This document shows positions 8,234-44,904 of a DNA stretch of 64,000 nt, one piece after another. The stretch lies in NCBI GenBank assembly GCA_030524105.1, contig JAUNHE010000004.1, positions 1 to 64,000 of the forward strand, in the 5' to 3' direction. A model generated the notes under the pieces. The model ran no database searches. It worked only from the letters and a program-made list of their open reading frames with translations, and was not told the origin of the DNA. Source of the stretch: Rothia sp. (in: high G+C Gram-positive bacteria). GTDB taxonomy: Bacteria > Actinomycetota > Actinomycetes > Actinomycetales > Micrococcaceae. Both the position numbers and the translations under genes were made by a program. Every line of letters starts with the position of its first letter. The stretch's first letter is position 1.

Positions 8234-9184
8234 TTATGCACGTGGGTGTGCATTTTTATAGGTTAAAGCCAGTCTTTCAACAGAAACATGGGTGTAAATC
8301 TGAGTTGTGGACAAAGAAGAATGGCCTAGTAGCTCTTGTACGGCCCTGATATCTGCTCCAGCATCAACCATGTGGGTGGCAGCGCTGTGGCGTAGGACGT
8401 GGGCGCCAGAAGCCTGAGTGTTAGGTAGCTGCTGCATCCTTTGGGTCAGTGCTGCCCGTAGCTGGCGAGGATTTGCCCTCCCCCCACGCGGCCCAATAAA
8501 AAGTGCCTCCTGCAGGCTGGCAGCAGCCTTAAACCATTGAGGTCGGCCCCGGGTGACCCACAGGTCAAGGGCACGCATGGCCGGCTGTCCAAAAGGGACC
8601 GTTCTTTCTTTATTGCCTTTTCCCAGTACCCTAATACTGTAATGATCACGATCAATGCTGGACAGGTTGAGACTACATAACTCAGCAATGCGGATTCCAC
8701 TTGCGTAGAGTAGCTCCATCACAGCTAAAAGCCTCATGAGGTGAGCATTGCTAGGGTCCTCCTTAAGATCGGCATAAACTAAATCCAGCAAGGTAACCAT
8801 TTGCTGCTGGCTTAAAACCGTCGGCAGGTAACCTTCCTTTTTAGGTACAGCCAAAGTCAAAGCGGGGTTAAGATCCAGCAACCCTTCTTCAGTGGCCCAG
8901 GCAAAAAATGACCGTAGGCTGGAGCTGCGCCGAGCCAAAGATGATTTGCTGCCTTGTTGGGTATGCAAGCTTGCTAACCAGGACCGGATATGGTTGATAT
9001 TAATATCGGCAAGGTGTTCTGTGCCCGACTTAAGGAGGTAGGAGAAAAAAGCTGACAGGTCAGACCGGTAGGCCTCTACGGTAGCCGGCGCCCGAAACTT
9101 TTCGTAGCGCAAGTAACGCAGATAGTCCTCAAGAACCTGAACAAATTCCTTCTTACCGCCGCTACCTTTTGTCTGTGGCACCAT
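8234..9184 (-). CDS. xerC: tyrosine recombinase XerC
   Basis: This site-specific recombinase resolves chromosome dimers at dif, normally with XerD. The 316-residue protein has the SAM-like DNA-binding N-terminal domain (about 15-105) and all six catalytic residues: Arg165, Lys189, His262, Arg265, His288 and Tyr297. GGGAGGG lies about 7 nt before the ATG. Its place downstream of dprA matches xerC in other Actinobacteria, which favours XerC over XerD. No att sites, phage genes or integron features are nearby, so it is a housekeeping recombinase rather than an integrase. Confidence 0.9.
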   Translation of the reverse strand: MVPQTKGSGGKKEFVQVLEDYLRYLRYEKFRAPATVEAYRSDLSAFFSYLLKSGTEHLADININHIRSWLASLHTQQGSKSSLARRSSSLRSFFAWATEEGLLDLNPALTLAVPKKEGYLPTVLSQQQMVTLLDLVYADLKEDPSNAHLMRLLAVMELLYASGIRIAELCSLNLSSIDRDHYSIRVLGKGNKERTVPFGQPAMRALDLWVTRGRPQWFKAAASLQEALFIGPRGGRANPRQLRAALTQRMQQLPNTQASGAHVLRHSAATHMVDAGADIRAVQELLGHSSLSTTQIYTHVSVERLALTYKNAHPRA

Positions 9185-33376: not shown

Positions 33377-34762
33377 ATGGCCAAAGATTACCCGCAGCTA
33401 GCACCGGATACCGGTGCTATACCGGTGAGTGCACCGCTTGCTCACACTGCCCAGCAATACCAGCAGCTGTCCCAAAGACATCAGCGCCAGAAAAAGAAGG
33501 CAGCACAGCCTCTCAATAAAGAGCCCATCCCGGTACAGCTTAAAGTACTCATTGCAGCCTCCTTTGTGATAGCCCTAGGCTTTGGCCTGATTGCACCGGT
33601 ACTGCCCCGCTATGCCACCAGCTTTGATGTTGGTGTCACCGCAGCCTCAGCCCTCATCTCCATTTTTGCGGTAACCCGGCTCATCTTTGCACCGGCCTCG
33701 GGACGGTGGGCCTCCCGCTACGGTGAACGGCCCACCTATATTACGGGGCTAGTCATTGTCGCTCTCAGTTCTCTGGGCACGGCCCTAGCCTGGGATTATC
33801 TGAGCCTGCTCTTGCTGCGGGGCTTAGGCGGTATCGGCTCGGTTATGTTCACGGTCTCGGCTATGGGTCTGCTAGTTAAACTCTCTCCGCCAAACCTACG
33901 AGGTAGAATCTCCGGCCTCTACGCCACCTCTTTCCTGCTGGGTAATATCTTGGGTCCGGTCTTAGGCTCTGCCCTCTCAGGCCTGGGCATGCGGCTGCCT
34001 TTTGTTATTTATGCGGCGGCGCTCTTTGTGGCCGCACTCCTTGTTTTTTTCTACCTCAAAGATCCAGCTGCAGAAGATCCAGCTGCTAGAGTTTCCCACC
34101 AGCAAGAGGAACTAAGCCTTAAAGAGGCGCTCAGTTTCTCGACCTACCGGGCTGCACTCACCACAAATTTTGCTCTGGGCTGGGCAGGGATGGGTATACG
34201 AATCTCCCTCCTACCCCTTGCTGCCCTGGCTCTGCTGGCCCACTATCACGGCCACGATGGAGCTGATGTGCAAACCCAAGCGACTGCCTTATCCGGTTAT
34301 GCCCTAGCCTGCTATGCCACCGGCAATGCGCTGACCCAAAATATTTCTGGCCCGCTCTCCGATCGTTACGGCCGCCGGCTACTGATCTTTGCAGGTTTGC
34401 TGCTGGCCGCTACTTCTACAGCAACGGTTGGCTACCTCACCCATCCACTACTCTTTGTAGTCATGAGTACTCTCACCGGTATTGGGGCCGGATTTTTAGC
34501 GCCACCACTGCAGGCTTCTGTAGCAGACATTATTGGCAGCTCCAGACCCGGCGGTAAAATGCTGGCCAGTTTTCAAATGACCCTTGACCTAGGTCAAATC
34601 CTTGGGCCCATCTTGGCCGGCTTACTAGCCGACCATTGGGGGTTCGGGCCGGCTTTTGCCCTTTCTGCTGCACTCTTGCTTATCTCAGCCTTGGGTTACC
34701 TGCCCTGGCGCAAACCAAAGTTTCCAGCTGAGCTGGCTGAGCCAGGCTATACGGGACGCTAG
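33377..34762 (+). CDS. MFS transporter, DHA1-like
   Basis: The 461-residue protein has a 50-residue hydrophilic N-terminus and about 12 membrane helices, with RWASRYGERPTY between helices 2 and 3 and GPLSDRYGRRLL in the second half, which are the two MFS loop motifs. The pattern is that of drug:proton antiporters, but the substrate is unknown. It is the only plus-strand gene between ftsY and smc, and its last 4 nt overlap the 3' end of smc tail to tail. Confidence 0.88.
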   Translation: MAKDYPQLAPDTGAIPVSAPLAHTAQQYQQLSQRHQRQKKKAAQPLNKEPIPVQLKVLIAASFVIALGFGLIAPVLPRYATSFDVGVTAASALISIFAVTRLIFAPASGRWASRYGERPTYITGLVIVALSSLGTALAWDYLSLLLLRGLGGIGSVMFTVSAMGLLVKLSPPNLRGRISGLYATSFLLGNILGPVLGSALSGLGMRLPFVIYAAALFVAALLVFFYLKDPAAEDPAARVSHQQEELSLKEALSFSTYRAALTTNFALGWAGMGIRISLLPLAALALLAHYHGHDGADVQTQATALSGYALACYATGNALTQNISGPLSDRYGRRLLIFAGLLLAATSTATVGYLTHPLLFVVMSTLTGIGAGFLAPPLQASVADIIGSSRPGGKMLASFQMTLDLGQILGPILAGLLADHWGFGPAFALSAALLLISALGYLPWRKPKFPAELAEPGYTGR

Positions 34763-37700
34763 CGGCCACCCGCTTGCTCCAGTAGCTGTTTCAACTTCTG
34801 TAAGTCCTGGCTGATAACCTGTGATACCCCCTGATTCATGCTGATCCCATACAGGGAGTCTGCAATCTGTACCGTGCGCGGTTTGTGGGTAATCACCAGC
34901 AGCTGGCTGCTTTGACTGAGCTGCTCCAAGAGGCCAAGAACCCTGCCAAGATTACGGTCATCCAAGGCAGCCTCTACCTCATCAAGCAGGTAGAAGGGGG
35001 CCGGACGGGCCGCAAAAACTGCCGTCAAAAAGGCCAGCGAGACCAGGGCGCGTTCTCCGCCAGAGAGCAGAGAAAGCCTCTTTATTTTTTTGCCAGCCGG
35101 CCTCACCGTCATTTCAATGCCCTCCTGAAGCGGCTGCTCCGCTTGAGTGAGAAGGAGCTGACCCTGGCCGTCAGGAAAAAGAATGGCAAAGTTTTTCTGG
35201 AAATGACGGGCAGTCTCTTCAAAGGCAGCCTCAAAGGATTCCTTAATGGCCTGGTTAAGCTCCTTAACCAGGGCCCGCATATCTGCCCGGGACTTTTTAA
35301 GGTCCAGGATCTGCTGGTGTAAGTAACTGTGCCGTTGTTCTAGAGCCCGGTACTCCTCTAAGGCCAAAGGGTTAACAGTACCCAGTTCTGCCAGCTTTTT
35401 TTCCTGAGTCCTCAATTGGTTGCGGACTTCTTCTGCCTCAAAATTCTGAGCCGAGTTCTGCCAGCTAGCTAAAAATTGCTCTGTAAGAGTTTTGAGGTGG
35501 CTGGCTAGTTCGAGCTGTGCCCTTTGCTCCAGGTTTTCCTGCTGGGCCTGTAGCCGGGCCTGCTCAATATTAACTTGGGCTAGCTGCCGACTCAGCCTAT
35601 CTAGCTCTTTCGTCAGTTCTGCCTGCTCTTCCCGAACTTCCTGGGTTTTAACGCCTAGATTGTGTAAGGCGTCTTTGTGGGCTGTGACTGCGGCAGTTTG
35701 CTCTTGGATATCCGCTTTAACATGGGTAAGGAGGGGGCTTGTTTTTGCCAGGGTCAGGCGGGCCCTCTCTCTTGCCTTTTGTTCTTGCTCTGCCAGCTTT
35801 TCTGCCAGCCTAGCCCTGTCCTCTAGCTGATTCAGACTTCTTTGGGCCTGCTCAATTTCTTGAGCTTGCTGGTCTAGGTGCCCACTAAGGCTGGCCTGCG
35901 TGGCCCTGAGGCCAGCTATTTTTTGCTGAATACTGCTGTGCTCTGCCTGAACCTGACTGAGCTGCTCTAGCAGCGGTTCCAGCTCTTCTGCTGCTGGCTT
36001 CTGCGCCTGGGTCTGGGCAAGTTCCTGGCTGATCAGTGCTAGCTCTTGCTGGCTTTCTGCCAGCTTCTGAGCTGTCTTTTCTTGTTTGGCTTTTCGGCGC
36101 TCCAGCTCAGATTGTGAGTAGTCTTTTTTACTGGTTATGCTTGCCTCTTTGGCCTCTAAGAGATTCAGTTCTGCCTGGGCTTTACCGCTGGCCCGAGCTG
36201 CAGCCTGTTCCTGGCTCCGGCTCAGCTGCAGCTGCTGACTCAGCTGCTCCAGCGCCTGCCTTGCCTGCTCAACTTTTTTGCTGGCCATACCCAGCTGGGC
36301 TTCAACTTTTTTGAGTTCAGCCGCATCCTCCAGAGAGGAAGCCTGAAGCAGCTGCGGGTAAATACGGCTGTAAGAGTTATGGGCAGTACCGTCGGCCCTA
36401 ATAATTGTGCAATCCGGATTTTCTTCCAGAAAGTTTTGAATCTGATCCACCCCGGTGGCGCTAGGGGCAAAGTAGGTTTTGCTCACAGCCTGCCTAAGAA
36501 TAGTCTGCAAGGGTTCACCAGCAGTAATAAAAGCTGCTGCCGGTTCAAAAGGTCCCCTAGTTTTAAGCTGGGTTACCGGAGGAAAACCTAGACTGGGCTG
36601 GTAAACCTGAGAAACAGCCCGACTGCTAACCTTTTCTGTAAACCAGGCCCTGGCCAGAAAGGCTAGGGCCGTATTTGCTGCTTTTTCCCAACCCGGTTTA
36701 ACAGTTATTTCTTGATAAACCGGCCGACTGCCCACCGGCGGATCTTCTTCTGTTACGCTGTGCAAGTTTTTGACCAGTAAACTCTGGCGAACCTTAAGAG
36801 TCTGACGGTTAAGCTCCAGGCTGTTTAGCTCCTTGTCAGCTTGCTCTTTCTGTGCAGCCTGCTCTTGGCCTTGGTCATGAGCTTTTTTCTCTGCCTCAAC
36901 AAATTCCTGATGTTCAGCCCGTTTTTTATGGATTTGAACTGCTACTTCCTGGGCAAGAAGACCGGACTGTTTCCAGGCTGCCTCTATATTTTTTAGTTCA
37001 CTGCCCTGCTCTTGAAAATCTTTGCTGTTACGTTCGTAGTGGGCTCTGGCAACGGCTAACTGCTCTGTTTGCCTGGCTTCCCGCTGCCGGTGCTGCCTGA
37101 CTGCTTCTTCTGCTTCTTGCCGGGCAAGAGATAAATCGGCCAATTTTTGCTGACAGTCCTGGGCCTGCCTGCCATAGTCGGCAAGTTCGTGAGCTAACTT
37201 CTCACTTTCTAGCTCCCCCTGCCGCTGGGACTCTTTCCTGGCAGCAAGTTGCTTTTTGGCAGCCGCCAGTTCCAGGGGGTTGACCTTGGGTGGAGCCGGC
37301 CGAGACCGATACCGTTCTTGGGCAACTGCAGCAATAGCTTCTAGTTGTGCCCGTGTTTTTTCTAAACTATCGAGCACCTGCTGGGCCCGCCGATAGGCTT
37401 CTTCCTGCTCTTGCTGATCAGCTACCTGCTGCTTACTTTTTTCTTGCCGAACAGCCACCTGCTGCCTTAAAGATTCCTGCTGCTGCTGCAGTTGCCTCAC
37501 GAGAGAGCAAACCTTTTGCTCTTCTGCGGCCAGCTCAAGCGCCTGATAGGCAAGTAGGTCTGCCTTGTACTGGCGAATCTGCGCCTGAAGCTGCTGCGCC
37601 TTACCAGCTGTTTTTGCCTGGTCCCCCAGGGGCTTAAGCTGGTCAGTAAGGTTTGCCTGCATATCTTCCAGCCGGTCAAGATCAATCTTAAGCGCCTGGA

Positions 37701-38241
37701 GTTTTTGTTCTGTTTTGTCAATTCGCCGCCGGTATTGGTGGATGCCGGCAGCCTCCTCCAAGAGCAGGCGCCGCTCCAAGGCACTAGAGCGCATAATCCG
37801 GTCTATTTCGCCTTGGCTCATCAGGGAATGCTTACTTTTACCGATACCGGCCTGAGCCAGCAGTTCTTGCAGCTCACTGAGCTTAACGGACTCCCCGTTT
37901 AAGCTGTATTCGGAATAACCATTGCGGAAAATTGTTCGGCTTATCTCCACCTCAGCCGCAGCTAGCTTTAGAGCAGCATCCGAGTTGTCAATCACTAGGC
38001 TAACTTTTGCTCTGCCCAGCGCAGCTCTTTGCTGGCTACCGGAGAAGATCAGATCCTCCATGCTGGCGCCCCGAAGGGACTTGGCACCCTGTTCACCAAC
38101 AACCCAGCTTAAGGCATCCACGATATTTGATTTACCAGAACCATTAGGCCCAACAATGGCAGTAATACCCGGGCTAAATTCAAAGTCTGTTCGGGAGGCA
38201 AAGGATTTAAAGCCGCGTAGAGTTAAACTTTTCAGGTACAC
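34759..38241 (-). CDS. smc: chromosome segregation protein SMC
   Basis: SMC forms ring-shaped dimers with ScpA and ScpB that compact and segregate the chromosome. The 1160-residue protein has Walker A GPNGSGKS (31-38), long coiled coils rich in Gln, Ala and Glu (about 165-480 and 650-1000), a hinge near 500-630, and the C-terminal head with LLSGGERAL and LLDEVEAALDD. The start is GTG. It is shorter than many actinobacterial SMCs because of slightly shorter coils. The gene is flanked by the MFS and ole insertions. Confidence 0.95.
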   Translation of the reverse strand: MYLKSLTLRGFKSFASRTDFEFSPGITAIVGPNGSGKSNIVDALSWVVGEQGAKSLRGASMEDLIFSGSQQRAALGRAKVSLVIDNSDAALKLAAAEVEISRTIFRNGYSEYSLNGESVKLSELQELLAQAGIGKSKHSLMSQGEIDRIMRSSALERRLLLEEAAGIHQYRRRIDKTEQKLQALKIDLDRLEDMQANLTDQLKPLGDQAKTAGKAQQLQAQIRQYKADLLAYQALELAAEEQKVCSLVRQLQQQQESLRQQVAVRQEKSKQQVADQQEQEEAYRRAQQVLDSLEKTRAQLEAIAAVAQERYRSRPAPPKVNPLELAAAKKQLAARKESQRQGELESEKLAHELADYGRQAQDCQQKLADLSLARQEAEEAVRQHRQREARQTEQLAVARAHYERNSKDFQEQGSELKNIEAAWKQSGLLAQEVAVQIHKKRAEHQEFVEAEKKAHDQGQEQAAQKEQADKELNSLELNRQTLKVRQSLLVKNLHSVTEEDPPVGSRPVYQEITVKPGWEKAANTALAFLARAWFTEKVSSRAVSQVYQPSLGFPPVTQLKTRGPFEPAAAFITAGEPLQTILRQAVSKTYFAPSATGVDQIQNFLEENPDCTIIRADGTAHNSYSRIYPQLLQASSLEDAAELKKVEAQLGMASKKVEQARQALEQLSQQLQLSRSQEQAAARASGKAQAELNLLEAKEASITSKKDYSQSELERRKAKQEKTAQKLAESQQELALISQELAQTQAQKPAAEELEPLLEQLSQVQAEHSSIQQKIAGLRATQASLSGHLDQQAQEIEQAQRSLNQLEDRARLAEKLAEQEQKARERARLTLAKTSPLLTHVKADIQEQTAAVTAHKDALHNLGVKTQEVREEQAELTKELDRLSRQLAQVNIEQARLQAQQENLEQRAQLELASHLKTLTEQFLASWQNSAQNFEAEEVRNQLRTQEKKLAELGTVNPLALEEYRALEQRHSYLHQQILDLKKSRADMRALVKELNQAIKESFEAAFEETARHFQKNFAILFPDGQGQLLLTQAEQPLQEGIEMTVRPAGKKIKRLSLLSGGERALVSLAFLTAVFAARPAPFYLLDEVEAALDDRNLGRVLGLLEQLSQSSQLLVITHKPRTVQIADSLYGISMNQGVSQVISQDLQKLKQLLEQAGGR

Positions 38242-38292
38242 ATCTGTGACATTACCCCAAGAGTGAAATCAAAGAAACTACCGCTAGCCACA

Positions 38293-38343
38293 TTTACAAT
38301 TGATGTTCAAGCCATAAATTTTGAACTTTATTGGCCTGCCAAT
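38293..38343 (+). promoter_or_regulatory. candidate ole promoter with adjoining palindrome
   Basis: TTTACA (38293-38298) and TAAATT (38315-38320) are 16 nt apart and fit a sigma-70 promoter for oleA. Just downstream is the inverted repeat ATTGGC/GCCAAT (38330-38343, 2-bp centre), which could be an operator over the transcript start. The smc promoter must lie in the same 137-nt gap. Confidence 0.35.
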
Positions 38344-38378
38344 AGGCGACCCTGTGGCATCACAACAATTGAAAGCTA

Positions 38379-39419
38379 GTGTTTTCCTTGAGTGCTAACT
38401 CCGATATTCGTCACCGTAACGTCTCTTTGCTCTCCATCGAAAAGGAGCTACCAACAGAGATTGTCTCGTCAGCATTTTTTGATGAGAAACTGGCTACTAC
38501 CTACAAACGCCTACGGATGCCCAAGGGTCTTTTGGAGCGTCTTGCCGGAATTAGCGAACGCCGTTCCTGGGCCAAAGGAGTCACCTTTGAGGACGGTGCC
38601 GCCGCCGCTGCCCGTCAGGCTATGCGCCAGGCACAGGTAGAGCCTGAGCAGATTGGTCTGCTGATCAATGCCTCCGTTACCAGAGATAATTTTGAACCCG
38701 CTGTGGCTGTTAATATCCACGATAAGCTAGGACTTGGCCGGCACACGCTCTGCTTCGATATCACCAACGCCTGCCTGGGGTTTGTCAATGCTATGACGGT
38801 GGCTGCCACCATGATTGATTCGGGCGCTATTGACTATGCGCTGATTGTTGCCGGAGAGGATCCTTCACCCTGGCACCGAACTGCTCTGAGAATCCTAGAT
38901 AGCGCCCAGACCACCCGGGACGATGTACTGGCACAGTTTGCCACCCTCACGCTGGGCTCCGGCGCTGCCGCTGCAGTTTTGGGCCGGACCGATCTGCACC
39001 CGCAGGGGCACCGGATTAAAGGTTCTGTTTCTCGGGCAGGGACCGAACATCGTCACCTGTGTATTGGTGGTGAGGCTGATCGGGGTATGAATACAGATGC
39101 CGCCGGTTTGCTTAAACACGGTCTTGAGTTGGTCGCTGAGGCTTGGGAGGAAGCTCACCAGCAGGGCTGGCAGTGGGCCAATATGGATTCTTACGTAACG
39201 CATCAGATTTCTAACGCACATACAAATGCCATTATTGAGGCCGTTGGTTTGGATCCGCGTAAGATTCCCATGACCTTCCCTTATTGGGGTAATGTGGCTG
39301 CGGCTGCCTTGCCCATGACCCTGGCCCAGGAGGCCAGCAGGTATAACCGGGGAGATCGTATTCTCTGCCTGGGAGTAGGCTCTGGTTTGAATACAACCTT
39401 GCTTGAAATTTTGTGGTAG
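38379..39419 (+). CDS. oleA: OleA, long-chain acyl-CoA head-to-head condensing enzyme
   Basis: OleA joins two acyl-CoAs head to head to form a beta-keto acid, the first step of olefin or beta-lactone synthesis. The 346-residue thiolase-fold protein has Cys132 (TNACLGF), His275 (VTHQIS) and Asn305 (YWGNVA), plus Glu106 in RDNFEP. Glu106 lies exactly 26 residues before the cysteine, as Glu117 does before Cys143 in the Xanthomonas enzyme; this glutamate separates OleA from FabH. The start is GTG at 38379, or TTG three codons later. oleBC and oleD follow directly. Confidence 0.92.
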   Translation: MFSLSANSDIRHRNVSLLSIEKELPTEIVSSAFFDEKLATTYKRLRMPKGLLERLAGISERRSWAKGVTFEDGAAAAARQAMRQAQVEPEQIGLLINASVTRDNFEPAVAVNIHDKLGLGRHTLCFDITNACLGFVNAMTVAATMIDSGAIDYALIVAGEDPSPWHRTALRILDSAQTTRDDVLAQFATLTLGSGAAAAVLGRTDLHPQGHRIKGSVSRAGTEHRHLCIGGEADRGMNTDAAGLLKHGLELVAEAWEEAHQQGWQWANMDSYVTHQISNAHTNAIIEAVGLDPRKIPMTFPYWGNVAAAALPMTLAQEASRYNRGDRILCLGVGSGLNTTLLEILW

Positions 39420-39500
39420 CAAGATAATTTACCCAGCCGGGTTAGCTCTTGCTAGGCTGTTGGCAACAGGTTATTGTGGTTTTAGATCTGAAAGATATTG

Positions 39501-42203
39501 ATGGCTCCCTACACGCTTAATCCTGATCCTTCTGCTTGGCCCGGCGTACTGCCCGAGTGGTCTCACCGGTTGGATGTTCCTTCTTCTGCTAGCTGCGATA
39601 CCGCTTGCAGCTACTCTTGGCATTATTTAGATAATGAGGCCAGCTTACGTCAGAAGGGCTTGCGGCCCTTAGGTAGCATCCTTGCTGTGCACGGTAACCC
39701 CACCTGGTCTTATGTCTGGCGTTCGCTGCTGGCCGCTGCTTCTGAGCCAGAGAACCCCTGGCGGGTTATTGCTGTTGACCAGCTTGATATGGGCTTTTCT
39801 ACCCGCACCGGAAAGGTCCGGGGCCTGGCTGATAGGGTGCAGGATCTGGCCGATTTTACAGCTGCCTTAGGTTTGGATGAGACCGAGCTGCCGCTGCTGG
39901 TTGCAGCCCACGATTGGGGTGGGCTTATTTCTTTGGGCTGGGCCTTAGAGCATCAGCAGATTCTTTCGGGGATTTTGTTAACCAATACCGCTGTTTTTCA
40001 TGATCAGCACCGGAAGATTCCGGCTCCGCTTCGGCTGGCTTTACACCCCGCTGTTCATTCCTGGGGCACCCAGTCTACTAGCGCCTTTTTAGATGTTACT
40101 CTGGGGCTGGTGCAGGCCGGTGGTTTGGATCCCGCTGTTCGCCGGGCCTATAAGGCTCCTTATCGCAGCCCTGAGGACCGGGCCGGTATCAGAAATTTTG
40201 TGGCCGATATCCCCGTTTCTTCTCAGGCGTCCTCTTATGCCAGCATGCAAGAGATTGCCCAGGGCATAAGCAAGCTGCAGGTGCCGGCTTTTATTCAATG
40301 GGGGGTCAAGGATCCTGTTTTTCAGCTTTCCCATTTAGCAGATTTACAGGAGCGCCTGCCCCAGGCTCAAGTACACCGTTACCAAGAAGCATCGCATCTG
40401 CTGGCTGAAGATGTTGATATTGCCCAGCCCATTATTGACTGGCTGGAAGAGAAGTTTTTGTGGAATCAGGATGGCAGGCAGGCCCAGTCTGCTGCCCGGC
40501 AGCAAGTTCAGACCTTGAGGGAGTTTGAACCTCTGATTGAAGGCTTGCGCTCCAGGGCCCAGGATCGGTCGCTGGCTGTTGTCGATATGGATGCTAAAGA
40601 CCCAAACCGGGTTGCTGCCCAGAGATCCTGGCAGCAACTTGCCGGTGATGTTAACAAAGTGGCTTATGGGCTGGAAAAATTAGGGGTTGGCCCCGGAGAT
40701 CGGGTTAATCTTTTGCTTAAACCCGGAGCCAAGTTAACCACTCTTATCTATGCCTGCCTCAGTATCGGGGCTGTCATTGTTGTGGCAGATAGTGGCCTGG
40801 GGCCTCGTGGTTTAACTCGGGCTCTTAAGGGGGCTCGTCCTGCCTACCTGATAGGAGATAAGACAGCTCTTCTTGCGGCAAAAACGCTGGGCTGGCCTGG
40901 AAAAGCTATCGCTAGCCAGCCTCTGGCAAAGCCGGTGAGGCGGGCCTTGGGGGTCATTGCTGAGCTGGACGATTTTACCCAGGATTCTCCTGGCTCTTCC
41001 TACCAGCCGGCGGCTGATGATCTGGCTGCCGTCCTCTATACGTCCGGTTCTACGGGTCCGGCTAAGGGTGTGGTCTATACCCAGGGGCAGCTTGCTGCTA
41101 TGCGGGACACCATTGCAGCAAGCTACGGTTTGCAGCCCGGTGCTGGTCTTGTGGCTGGGTTTGCACCCTTTGCCTTGCTAGGGCCGGCCTTGGGGGTTAC
41201 GTCGGTGACTCCCTCCATGGATGTTACCCGGCCCAAGACTTTAAGCGCTCAGGCTCTTGCCAGTGCTGCGGCAGCCATTGATGCCAGTACGGTTTTTGCC
41301 TCACCAGCAGCCTTGCATAATATTGTGCGTACTAGCTCTGACTTAAGCAGCCAGCAGCTTCAGACCTTAAAGAAGATACAGACTGTGCTCTCGGCGGGAG
41401 CTCCGGTGTCGGTTTCGCTCTTAGAGGCGGTGGCTGCTCTGATGCCGCAAGCTAGTATTCACACCCCCTACGGGATGACAGAAGCCCTGCCGGTAACCGA
41501 TATTAGTTTGGTGCAGATCAAGCAAGCTCTTGAGGATGCAGGGGTACAGGGCCAGCCGCCGGCTGTGATCGGTGCCGGTGCCGGGGTTTGTGTTGGTTTA
41601 CCTCTTGCCGGTGCCCAGCTAGCTATTGCTGCTCTTGATGAGAAGGGGGTAGCAGCAGAGACTCTCAGCCAGCAGCCGGCTGTGACTGGAGAGATTGTGG
41701 TTCGTGCAGCTCATGTGAAGGATCACTACGATGGGCTCTGGGTAACTGAGCGGCTTTCAACCAGGAATCCTGGCTGGCATCGAACCGGCGATGTTGGCCA
41801 TTTGGATGGCGCTGGCCGACTTTGGGTGGAAGGCAGGCTGGATCATGTCATGCTGACTAGTCAGGGTGTCTTAACTCCGGTAGCAGCGGAGCAGGCTGCC
41901 GAGCTACTGCCGGATGTTAGGCGCGCTGGCCTGGTTGCTGTTGGCCCGGCTGGTTCTGCGGTACCGGTTCTTGTCATAGAAACCGAACCGCGTGCCCGCC
42001 ATGACGGTAGGGTTGCGCCTCCTTTGGCTGCGCGGATCCGGCAGCAGGTAGCGGATAGGACAGGGATTGAGCTAGCTGCTGTTCTAGTGGTCCGTGAGCA
42101 TCCTACCGATATTCGCCATAACTCTAAGATTGACAGGAAGCGTCTTGCTGTTTGGGCAGAGCAGCTTCTGAGCGGTAAGAAGGTGGGCTTTAAGAAATGC
42201 TGA
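39501..42203 (+). CDS. oleBC: OleBC fusion: beta-lactone decarboxylase and beta-lactone synthetase
   Basis: This 900-residue protein joins two enzymes. Residues 1-320 are an alpha/beta hydrolase of the haloalkane-dehalogenase type (OleB) with HGNPTW (64-69), nucleophile Asp138 in HDWG and His299. Residues about 340-900 are an AMP-forming ligase (OleC) with YTSGSTGPAKG (513-523), YGMTE (657-661), TGD (762-764) and the C-terminal Lys876. OleC closes a beta-hydroxy acid to a beta-lactone, and OleB removes CO2 to leave a cis-olefin. The same fusion is known in Micrococcus. The ATG at 39501 follows GAAAG. Confidence 0.92.
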   Translation: MAPYTLNPDPSAWPGVLPEWSHRLDVPSSASCDTACSYSWHYLDNEASLRQKGLRPLGSILAVHGNPTWSYVWRSLLAAASEPENPWRVIAVDQLDMGFSTRTGKVRGLADRVQDLADFTAALGLDETELPLLVAAHDWGGLISLGWALEHQQILSGILLTNTAVFHDQHRKIPAPLRLALHPAVHSWGTQSTSAFLDVTLGLVQAGGLDPAVRRAYKAPYRSPEDRAGIRNFVADIPVSSQASSYASMQEIAQGISKLQVPAFIQWGVKDPVFQLSHLADLQERLPQAQVHRYQEASHLLAEDVDIAQPIIDWLEEKFLWNQDGRQAQSAARQQVQTLREFEPLIEGLRSRAQDRSLAVVDMDAKDPNRVAAQRSWQQLAGDVNKVAYGLEKLGVGPGDRVNLLLKPGAKLTTLIYACLSIGAVIVVADSGLGPRGLTRALKGARPAYLIGDKTALLAAKTLGWPGKAIASQPLAKPVRRALGVIAELDDFTQDSPGSSYQPAADDLAAVLYTSGSTGPAKGVVYTQGQLAAMRDTIAASYGLQPGAGLVAGFAPFALLGPALGVTSVTPSMDVTRPKTLSAQALASAAAAIDASTVFASPAALHNIVRTSSDLSSQQLQTLKKIQTVLSAGAPVSVSLLEAVAALMPQASIHTPYGMTEALPVTDISLVQIKQALEDAGVQGQPPAVIGAGAGVCVGLPLAGAQLAIAALDEKGVAAETLSQQPAVTGEIVVRAAHVKDHYDGLWVTERLSTRNPGWHRTGDVGHLDGAGRLWVEGRLDHVMLTSQGVLTPVAAEQAAELLPDVRRAGLVAVGPAGSAVPVLVIETEPRARHDGRVAPPLAARIRQQVADRTGIELAAVLVVREHPTDIRHNSKIDRKRLAVWAEQLLSGKKVGFKKC

Positions 42204-43282
42204 CCAAGGCTTTTTCTCTTCACGGGTTAGCCCGGGAAGATTTTGCCCCTCCTAATGGCCAGCATCTGCTGGTGACGGGGGCTTCGGGGATGCTGGGTAG
42301 AGAGCTTGCCCTGCACTTGCTGCGGCAGGGCTATCATCTTACTCTCATGCAACGGTCGGATTCGGGAATTAGCCAGCTGCTGCCGCAGAGCCTAGGCTCT
42401 AGGGTCAGGCAGGTGCAAGCCAGCATCACCGATCGGCAGGCTGTTGCAGAGGCTGTTCAGGGGGTTAATGGCCTCATTCATTTGGCGGCTAAGGTCTCTA
42501 TGACCGGTCACTGGCAGGATTTTTTTGCTGTCAATGTCACCGGGACTCAACTGCTGGTGCAGGCTGCTGTGGAGCAGGATGGCTTAAAGGATTTTCTTTT
42601 TATTTCCTCTCCTTCAGTTGCCCATTTTGGTTCAGCTTTTATGGGTCAGCCGGCCTTACCGGCACAACCTGAGCTGGCGAGGGGAAACTATGCCCGTTCT
42701 AAGGCTATGGCGGAGCAGCTTGTCCTGGCTGCCGATGGCCAGTCCTTAAGGGTTGGGGTCTTGAGGCCCCATATTGTGTGGGGTCCCGGTGATACGCAGC
42801 TGGTTGAGCGGATTTTAGCCAGGGCTAGTCAGGGCCGGCTACCCTTGCTTAATGAGGGTAATGCCTTGATCGATACCACCTATATTGATAATGCGGTTGC
42901 AGCTATTTTTGCCGGTTATACCAGGCTTGATAAGATTCATGGCCAGCCTTTGGTGGTCAGTAATGGCCAGCCCCGTCCGGTAGCTGAGATTATTGCCGGC
43001 ATGTGTGAGGCTGTTGGTATTCAGGCTCCCCGGCGTTCTATACCTGCCGCTGCTGCTACTCTTGCAGGTTCAGTCATTGAAAAGGTCTGGCAGTTTGGTT
43101 TCAGCCAGGATGAGCCGCCCATGACTCATTTTCTTGCAGAGCAGCTTTCGACATCCCACTGGTTTGATCAGCGGCTTACCCGGGAGCTTTTGGATTGGAC
43201 TCCGGACATAAGTTTGGAGCAGGGTTACCAGAAGCTTGCTGAGTTCTACGGATCCAATACTTGGCAGCGGGGGCAGCGGTAG
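42197..43282 (+). CDS. oleD: OleD, NAD(P)H-dependent beta-keto acid reductase
   Basis: OleD reduces the beta-keto acid made by OleA to a beta-hydroxy acid for OleC. The 361-residue short-chain dehydrogenase (extended type) has TGASGMLG (27-34) for cofactor binding and the catalytic Tyr165-x3-Lys169 (NYARSK). Its ATG overlaps oleBC by 7 nt, so translation is likely coupled. Its last 37 nt overlap the 3' end of mutM on the other strand, so the two transcripts are partly antisense. Confidence 0.9.
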   Translation: MLTKAFSLHGLAREDFAPPNGQHLLVTGASGMLGRELALHLLRQGYHLTLMQRSDSGISQLLPQSLGSRVRQVQASITDRQAVAEAVQGVNGLIHLAAKVSMTGHWQDFFAVNVTGTQLLVQAAVEQDGLKDFLFISSPSVAHFGSAFMGQPALPAQPELARGNYARSKAMAEQLVLAADGQSLRVGVLRPHIVWGPGDTQLVERILARASQGRLPLLNEGNALIDTTYIDNAVAAIFAGYTRLDKIHGQPLVVSNGQPRPVAEIIAGMCEAVGIQAPRRSIPAAAATLAGSVIEKVWQFGFSQDEPPMTHFLAEQLSTSHWFDQRLTRELLDWTPDISLEQGYQKLAEFYGSNTWQRGQR

Positions 43283-44190
43283 GAGCTACGGTTCATGAAG
43301 GGTTCGCGCTGGATGAGGCTGGTCTGTCCCTCGCTTAAGCAGCGTGAGCAGGGCTTGCCTTGCTGGCTGTAGGCCTGCAAGGACCGGTCAAAGTATCCCG
43401 ATTGGCCGTTGACGTTGACGTAGAGGGCATCAAAGCTGGTTCCTCCAGCCTGGAGGGCTTTAAGCATGACCGTTTTTACTGCCGTTAGCAGCAGCTGGCA
43501 TTGCTCTTTGCTTAAGCTTTTTCCTGGCCGGCCGTAGTGCAGCTTAGCCTGCCATAGGGCCTCATCAGCGTAGATATTTCCCACCCCAGAAAGCAGGGAC
43601 TGGTCAAGGAGTAGCCGTTTGATAGCTGATCGGCTCCGCAAAACTTTTTGACAAAATTCTTCCAGCGAAAAGTAGGGGTCTAAGGGGTCCCTGCCCAAAT
43701 GGCTGAGGGATGCGGGCAGTAAGGCCCGATTTGTTTGAGACTTTGAAGCTCCGGGGCAGGGCTGGCCCTGCCGGTCTTTAACCGGGAGCAGGGGGTCCAG
43801 GTACATGCCACCAAAAATACGCTGATCTATGAAACGTAGCTGGATTGACCGGCCTTGAGTTAGGGTGAGGTCGCAGAAAATTTTTTGGTGCTTCTCTGGC
43901 GGAAAGTCTTTCTTTTTAAGCAGGAGCTGCCCGCTCATGCCCAGGTGCATGACCAGGGCTGTGTCTTTAAGCTGCTGGTGCTGGTCGGCAAGGAGCAGCC
44001 ACAAGTATTTGCCCCGTCGGCAGATATCTACAATTCTGCTTTCGGTTAAGTAGTCTATAAAGCTGTTTGCTGAACCCCGGTAACGGCGTAGGGAACGCTG
44101 ATCTTTAACCCTTACTGTTTTGATCTGGCAGGGTAGTATATTCTGAGCCAATCCGGCGCGAACAACCTCAACCTCGGGTAATTCTGGCAT
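43246..44190 (-). CDS. mutM: formamidopyrimidine-DNA glycosylase
   Basis: MutM removes 8-oxoguanine and cleaves the DNA backbone. The 314-residue protein has the catalytic Pro2-Glu3 (MPELPEVE), the conserved Lys61, the H2TH segment SLLSGVGNIYADEALW and a zinc finger with Cys281, Cys284, Cys306 and Cys309. It is slightly longer than typical because of an insert near 135-165. The gene follows rnc on the minus strand, an arrangement common in Actinobacteria, and its 3' end overlaps oleD. Confidence 0.95.
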   Translation of the reverse strand: MPELPEVEVVRAGLAQNILPCQIKTVRVKDQRSLRRYRGSANSFIDYLTESRIVDICRRGKYLWLLLADQHQQLKDTALVMHLGMSGQLLLKKKDFPPEKHQKIFCDLTLTQGRSIQLRFIDQRIFGGMYLDPLLPVKDRQGQPCPGASKSQTNRALLPASLSHLGRDPLDPYFSLEEFCQKVLRSRSAIKRLLLDQSLLSGVGNIYADEALWQAKLHYGRPGKSLSKEQCQLLLTAVKTVMLKALQAGGTSFDALYVNVNGQSGYFDRSLQAYSQQGKPCSRCLSEGQTSLIQREPFMNRSSYRCPRCQVLDP

Positions 44191-44223
44191 GCCGTTTTCT
44201 TACTTTTTCTTCCGGAAGCTGGC

Positions 44224-44904
44224 TTATGTTAAGGCCTGGTAGGCGTTTTTGGCTGCTAGACGTTCTGCTTCTTTTTTGGACGATGCCTCCGCAGCTGGGA
44301 AGGAACGTTGCCCTACCTGGGCTATGGCGTAATACTGGCGCTGGTGGTCCGGGCCATCAGCGGTGACCGCGTAGCTGATGCTGCCAAGCTTTTTACCTTG
44401 GGTAACTACTTGGAGGTCTGTTTTCCAGTCCCGGCCAGCTTCGAGGATTTCTTGGTCAGCAAGCATGGGCCCTACCCAACGTAGAACTAGCTGACGGGCA
44501 GCTTCTCGGCCGGCAGAGAGGTAGCAGGCACCAAAAATTGCTTCCATGGTGTCGGCCAGAATATTGTCCTTATCGGCTCCACCAGATTTGGCTTCTCCTT
44601 TGCCCATGCGGATGCAGGGACCAATCTCTAGCTGGCGGGCTAGCTGGGCTAGGGCCCAGGCTGAAACCACAACGTGATGCCGTTTAACTAGCTCTCCCTC
44701 GGCAAGGTCGGGAAAACGCCGGTAGGCTTCTTCGGCAATGGCCAAGGAGAGTACGGAGTCACCTAAAAATTCCAGTCTTTCGTTGTTGGGTTCGTCCGGG
44801 TGCTCAAAGGAGTAGGAGCTGTGGGTCAGTGCGTGCTGAAACGTCTCGGCGTCGATATTGACGCCGAGACGTTTTTGCAATTCTGATAGATCAGATTTTT
44901 TCAT
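44224..44904 (-). CDS. rnc: ribonuclease III
   Basis: RNase III cuts double-stranded RNA, including rRNA precursors. The 226-residue protein has the signature NERLEFLGDS (41-50), the second acidic cluster ADTMEAIFGA and a C-terminal double-stranded RNA-binding domain ending in KEAERLAAKNAYQALT. It starts 9 nt after rpmF. The order DUF177-rpmF-rnc-mutM is standard for Actinobacteria. Confidence 0.95.
   Translation of the reverse strand: MKKSDLSELQKRLGVNIDAETFQHALTHSSYSFEHPDEPNNERLEFLGDSVLSLAIAEEAYRRFPDLAEGELVKRHHVVVSAWALAQLARQLEIGPCIRMGKGEAKSGGADKDNILADTMEAIFGACYLSAGREAARQLVLRWVGPMLADQEILEAGRDWKTDLQVVTQGKKLGSISYAVTADGPDHQRQYYAIAQVGQRSFPAAEASSKKEAERLAAKNAYQALT

Follow-up and report, generated by a model that had tools for sequence, protein, structure and literature searches.

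The window analysed here, a 64,000-nucleotide stretch of Rothia sp. DNA (contig JAUNHE010000004.1, positions 1 to 64,000), carries oleA, oleBC and oleD on the forward strand between smc and mutM. We are highly confident that these genes form the standard actinobacterial oleABCD operon, that this operon would make an internal olefin and that its position divergent from smc is ancient. Judged from its sequence, the cluster looks like an ordinary, intact three-gene set for long-chain membrane hydrocarbons. The unusual-looking placement appears to be old and shared, which would make the cluster a standing trait of the group and not a transferred novelty.

As the first-pass annotation had it, the list of open reading frames places OleA at 38379-39419, OleBC at 39498-42203 and OleD at 42197-43282, all on the forward strand. 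The most likely start of oleBC is the ATG at 39501, as opposed to the listed TTG at 39498, giving a gene of 39501..42203 and a protein of 900 amino acids. For oleA (38379..39419) the true start is likely a TTG at 38388 (343 amino acids); this codon is present in five of five aligned oleA sequences, and OleA alignments to relatives begin at residues 3 to 6, with a partial match in one genome (G049) as the exception. The 7-nt overlap of oleBC with oleD (42197-42203) and the 37-nt overlap of oleD with mutM (43246-43282) are both real. Divergent from oleA on the reverse strand lies smc (34759..38241; TIGR02168, 726.5 bits, cut-off 567), and a promoter scan of the smc-oleA gap found one site where 0.6 were expected. 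Convergent with oleD (42197..43282) is the reverse-strand gene mutM, or fpg (43246..44190; NF002211, 285.6 bits, cut-off 212); beyond it, also on the reverse strand, is rnc (44224..44904; TIGR02191 RNaseIII, 202.5 bits, cut-off 166).

Family searches and motif residues agree that the ole cluster is complete and that its OleB and OleC are fused. OleA, the acyl-CoA condensing thiolase, contains ketosynthase-III and thiolase domains (Pfam) and scored 440.9 bits against NCBIfam NF006720, above the cut-off of 285. Its top match in the PDB was 3s21 (E = 1.3e-72), and relatives of 3s21 were among the best matches; we take 3s21, 3row, 5vxf and the other matched chains to be OleA of Xanthomonas campestris, with which the window protein shares its sequence family and its catalytic residues. 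OleBC combines an alpha/beta hydrolase (Abhydrolase_1), the N-terminal beta-lactone decarboxylase, with an AMP-binding ligase fold (AMP-forming), the C-terminal beta-lactone synthetase. Its best NCBIfam match was the fatty acid CoA ligase model NF006754, below that model's own cut-off, and the OleC models NF045786 and NF045785 ranked second and third at 282.7 and 258.6 bits, below their cut-offs of 900 and 850. The OleB half aligned with haloalkane dehalogenases across HGNPT(W), HDWG and the C-terminal His. OleD, an NAD(P)H-dependent 2-alkyl-3-oxoalkanoate reductase of the SDR type, has SDR-type domains (Pfam), and NF042422 (oxyalk_red_OleD) ranked first for it at 269.2 bits, below the cut-off of 580.

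To place the cluster among its relatives we searched 99 genomes, the window's own included: 35 from the genus, 26 from the rest of the family (one per genus) and 38 from other families (numbered G below, with loci numbered L). At a threshold of E <= 1e-40, OleA was found in 62 of them. Alignments were made of 62 OleA sequences (59 of the 62 OleA genomes and three named records, with G087, G090 and G098 left out), 56 OleBC sequences and 60 OleD sequences, low-coverage alignments being dropped. The role of each catalytic residue in OleA, OleB, OleC and OleD is general background, apart from the OleA signature and Glu117, for which sources are given below. Glu106, Cys132, His275 and Asn305 of OleA stand where the first-pass annotation had placed them, correspond by alignment offset to residues 117, 143, 285 and 315 of the 358-amino-acid PDB chains, and are invariant in all 62 aligned sequences. 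Glu117 of OleA is the subject of a title in the reference list of PMC7064751, part of which was available. By sequence, the window protein also carries the signature EPxx[AS]x(14,18)DxxNACL given for OleA in the available text of PMC7158056.

The other two proteins appear equally intact. The three glycines of GxxGxxG and the Ser, Tyr and Lys of OleD are present in the window and invariant in 60 of 60 sequences. All OleB and OleC residues that we checked are kept in the window, in agreement with the earlier description of the OleBC motifs; of 11 such sites in 56 sequences, seven are invariant, another shows a single substitution (W to Y in G070) and the remaining three are uncovered in G037. 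By sequence, the window has an OleA with the Cys/His/Asn triad and the Glu117 equivalent together with intact OleB, OleC and OleD. Among the relatives, one stop falls within the OleA match in G003, G006, G023 and G049, and one within the OleBC match in G007 and G087.

In the window, OleB and OleC share a single frame of 900 codons. Both halves lie in one frame in 58 of the 62 OleA genomes, as one match spanning both halves in 50 and as pieces within one open frame in eight more. In G001 and G049 the halves are in different frames; in G025 oleBC is interrupted by contig ends, and in G004, where OleA is at a contig end, OleBC was not matched. The oleBC alignments in G001 (L102) and G049 (L068) run through three reading frames, which could reflect a disruption or a sequencing error. 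On the evidence of its sequence the layout is one already known and standard for Micrococcales: an oleBC fusion has been seen before, typically in that order (available text of PMC7064751), and the arrangement oleA, oleBC, oleD is published for it (PMC7158056, seen in part). The cluster of Micrococcus luteus and other Micrococcales described there resembles the window's in gene order, OleBC fusion and OleA signature; the olefins were measured in that study, whereas the window cluster is known from DNA alone. Unlike the fusion found here, OleB and OleC of X. campestris are encoded by separate genes.

The predicted pathway would begin with OleA joining two fatty acyl-CoAs head to head into a beta-keto acid, which OleD would reduce, giving a beta-hydroxy acid. 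Closure of the beta-lactone would fall to the OleC half, and the OleB half would then remove CO2 from the lactone to leave an internal olefin. This matches the published order, in which OleA condenses two acyl-CoAs, OleD reduces, OleC makes the lactone and OleB decarboxylates (PMC7158056, available part). The resulting internal olefin probably measures about C27-C29 and has branched ends. Olefins of Micrococcales measured by GC/MS average 27-29 carbons with iso and anteiso ends, those of Kocuria are shorter, and OleA largely determines the profile, according to the same partly available source.

The first-pass annotation had allowed for either an olefin or a beta-lactone, and the first of these is well founded from the sequence. 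A beta-lactone as the end product would find a precedent in oleACD clusters without oleB, which yield beta-lactones (available text of PMC7064751). The absence of oleB that marks those natural-product clusters is not seen in the window: the OleB half exists and is fused to OleC, and its nucleophile Asp, base His and HGNPTW motif are all conserved. With OleB in place and intact, we consider a beta-lactone end product very unlikely, and the olefin remains the predicted product.

The location of the operon was compared across the same genomes, which was the check suggested for the earlier proposal that the genes had been inserted locally between smc and mutM. OleA was found in 32 of the 35 genus genomes, and in every one of these 32 oleA and smc share a contig and diverge from each other (29 measured rows, with G000, G004 and G025 added from separate OleA and smc searches). 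Counting the window and G025, 26 of the 32 have mutM within 4 kb past oleD; in G003, G013, G023 and G031 islands or a contig end separate mutM from oleD, and in G004 and G033 it is on a different contig from oleD. Three genus members gave no OleA match. In G016 (65% complete) oleD adjoins mutM at a contig end; in G024 (72% complete) smc is adjacent to mutM; in G015 (99% complete) neither OleA nor MutM was matched, and smc is near rnc (L081).

Elsewhere in the family OleA was present in 18 of 26 genomes. It is divergent from smc in nine (G037, G038, G040, G048, G050, G051, G057, G058 and G060), lies about 6 kb from smc on its other side in G055, and is not beside smc in eight, two of which (G047 and G054) yielded no smc match. 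Of the 38 genomes from other families 12 had OleA, and in none of these was it seen next to smc. No smc was matched in G070 and G087; the fragmented assemblies G073, G090 and G098 might still have the two genes side by side. Measured between alignment ends, the smc-oleA gap is 195-557 nt (37 rows, G055 left out). Arthrobacter sp. 260 (NZ_JABFOE010000008.1, L031) has the same order as the window, namely smc on the reverse strand, oleA, oleBC and oleD on the forward strand, and mutM and rnc on the reverse strand, with an MFS gene beyond smc as in the window. It differs in having 2.7 kb between oleD and mutM and an OleBC that is about 50% identical to the window's.

These distributions bear directly on the possibility of a recent local insertion in this lineage. 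In its favor, a gap of no more than about 200 nt separates smc from mutM in four of the eight family genomes that lack OleA (G039, G044, G052 and G059), and the site can also lack ole within the genus, as in G024. Against it stand the divergent placement in 32 of 32 OleA-bearing genus genomes and in nine other genera, the ordinary GC content of the operon region (38-43 kb falls inside the range of the whole window) and a repeat scan of 37900-44300, in which short imperfect matches were found but no repeats flanking the operon as a pair. The window's sole PF00589 match is a XerC-like gene at 8234-9184, and no PF00239 match was found in it. The 37-nt overlap of oleD with mutM had been read as a sign of insertion; oleD overlaps an intact mutM in only one of 34 rows from relatives (G011, about 43 nt), while in G038 it overlaps a mutM fragment. 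Since the overlap is not conserved, it is uninformative on insertion. Recent insertion is therefore rejected on the location in relatives and the lack of a framing repeat, and we regard it as extremely unlikely. A placement shared by relatives is also what the first-pass annotation had named as grounds for calling the insertion ancestral.

The sharing of one position by nearly all the genus members sampled argues instead for old inheritance, and the sequences say that the placement of ole beside smc is old. The operon would have taken up its place between mutM and smc, on the strand opposite to theirs and divergent from smc, before the genus split from at least nine other genera of the family. 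The earlier supposition that these two genes tend to sit close together in Actinobacteria holds in part: the gap is <200 nt in four of the eight family genomes without OleA. An ancient entry of ole into a mutM-smc operon is therefore possible.

A quick OleA tree (62 rows, SH-aLRT support only) gave four changes for the label "linked to smc", compared with a mean of 17.1 after shuffling and with none of 500 shuffles as low, the node uniting the two linked groups being open. A single origin of the smc-linked operon is consistent with this tree, although not proven by it. G042, G055 and G056 are placed among the smc-linked rows and are likely relocations. Six unlinked family genomes (G035, G036, G045, G047, G049 and G054) fall in a separate OleA group that also takes in G065 and G083, which come from a different family; the window's family therefore contains two ole lineages. 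A literature search for oleA together with smc found no paper, and neither smc nor mutM occurs in the available text of PMC7158056.

The 3' end of mutM, beside the operon, is a possible docking site in relatives for islands that resemble defence and metal-resistance elements. Additional pieces of the MutM C-terminus occur downstream of mutM in G003, G013, G023, G031 and G038; in each of these five genomes one such piece adjoins oleD, at a distance of about 2 kb in G031. Weak second MutM matches were also obtained in G004, G048, G087 and G090. The window genome has one mutM match and none extra, and thus no such island. The islands were seen in loci L115, L052, L119, L117, L096, L080, L120, L107, L114, L123, L124 and L053, some of the islands being in tandem.

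Starting from the same mutM codon, the islands of G003 and G031 are 99.96% identical over 14.0 kb. Those of G003 and G038, which belongs to another genus, are 99.7-99.9% identical in the compared stretches. The flanks are 65-77% identical. By eye, the boundary GA(A/G)TC(C/G)GG is present in G003, G031 (left end) and G038, and the island supplies its own last mutM codons; the right ends of G013 and G023 fit this boundary, that of G031 does not, and the left island end of G013 looks native. The cargo includes type I and type III restriction systems and OLD/GajA-like and Abi_2 genes, along with SBF transporters, an LMW phosphatase, P-type ATPases, a multicopper oxidase and cation efflux genes, and we infer from these names that it serves defence and metal resistance.

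We tentatively suggest, as a rather doubtful reading, that a class of mobile islands carrying their own replacement mutM end integrates at the mutM 3' end, with oleD as the boundary gene, and that these move between genera by a recombinase of neither the tyrosine nor the serine type. PF00589 and PF00239 (tyrosine and serine recombinases) had no match within the islands of G003, G013, G023, G031 and G038. No recombinase or transposase was named among island ORFs in 38 scans against Pfam or PADLOC, in which some ORFs were entered twice, some were possibly out of frame and L122 (G060) came from a genome without mutM fragments. Among the literature matches listed, nothing described mutM as an island integration site, and the available part of PMC11706625 does not mention mutM.

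A gene next to the island ends, gene X, was a recombinase candidate that we discarded: it had no Pfam match above cut-off and no PADLOC or PDB match, and its relatives in G030 and G026 sit away from mutM. Divergent MutM paralogues of almost full length, sharing about 40-43% identity with the window MutM, were seen at L123:2846-3685, L124:1675-2514 and L114:3181-4083; each comes immediately after mutM or one of its 3' pieces. The paralogue in L123 is followed by a 324-amino-acid protein (L123:3781-4755) that begins with a Cys-rich stretch, shows a YHT..HVGT pattern and matched no family above cut-off. This protein was found in six of the 99 genomes, and in L131 a relative, as read from the ORFs, lies near a Phd/RelE-like pair.
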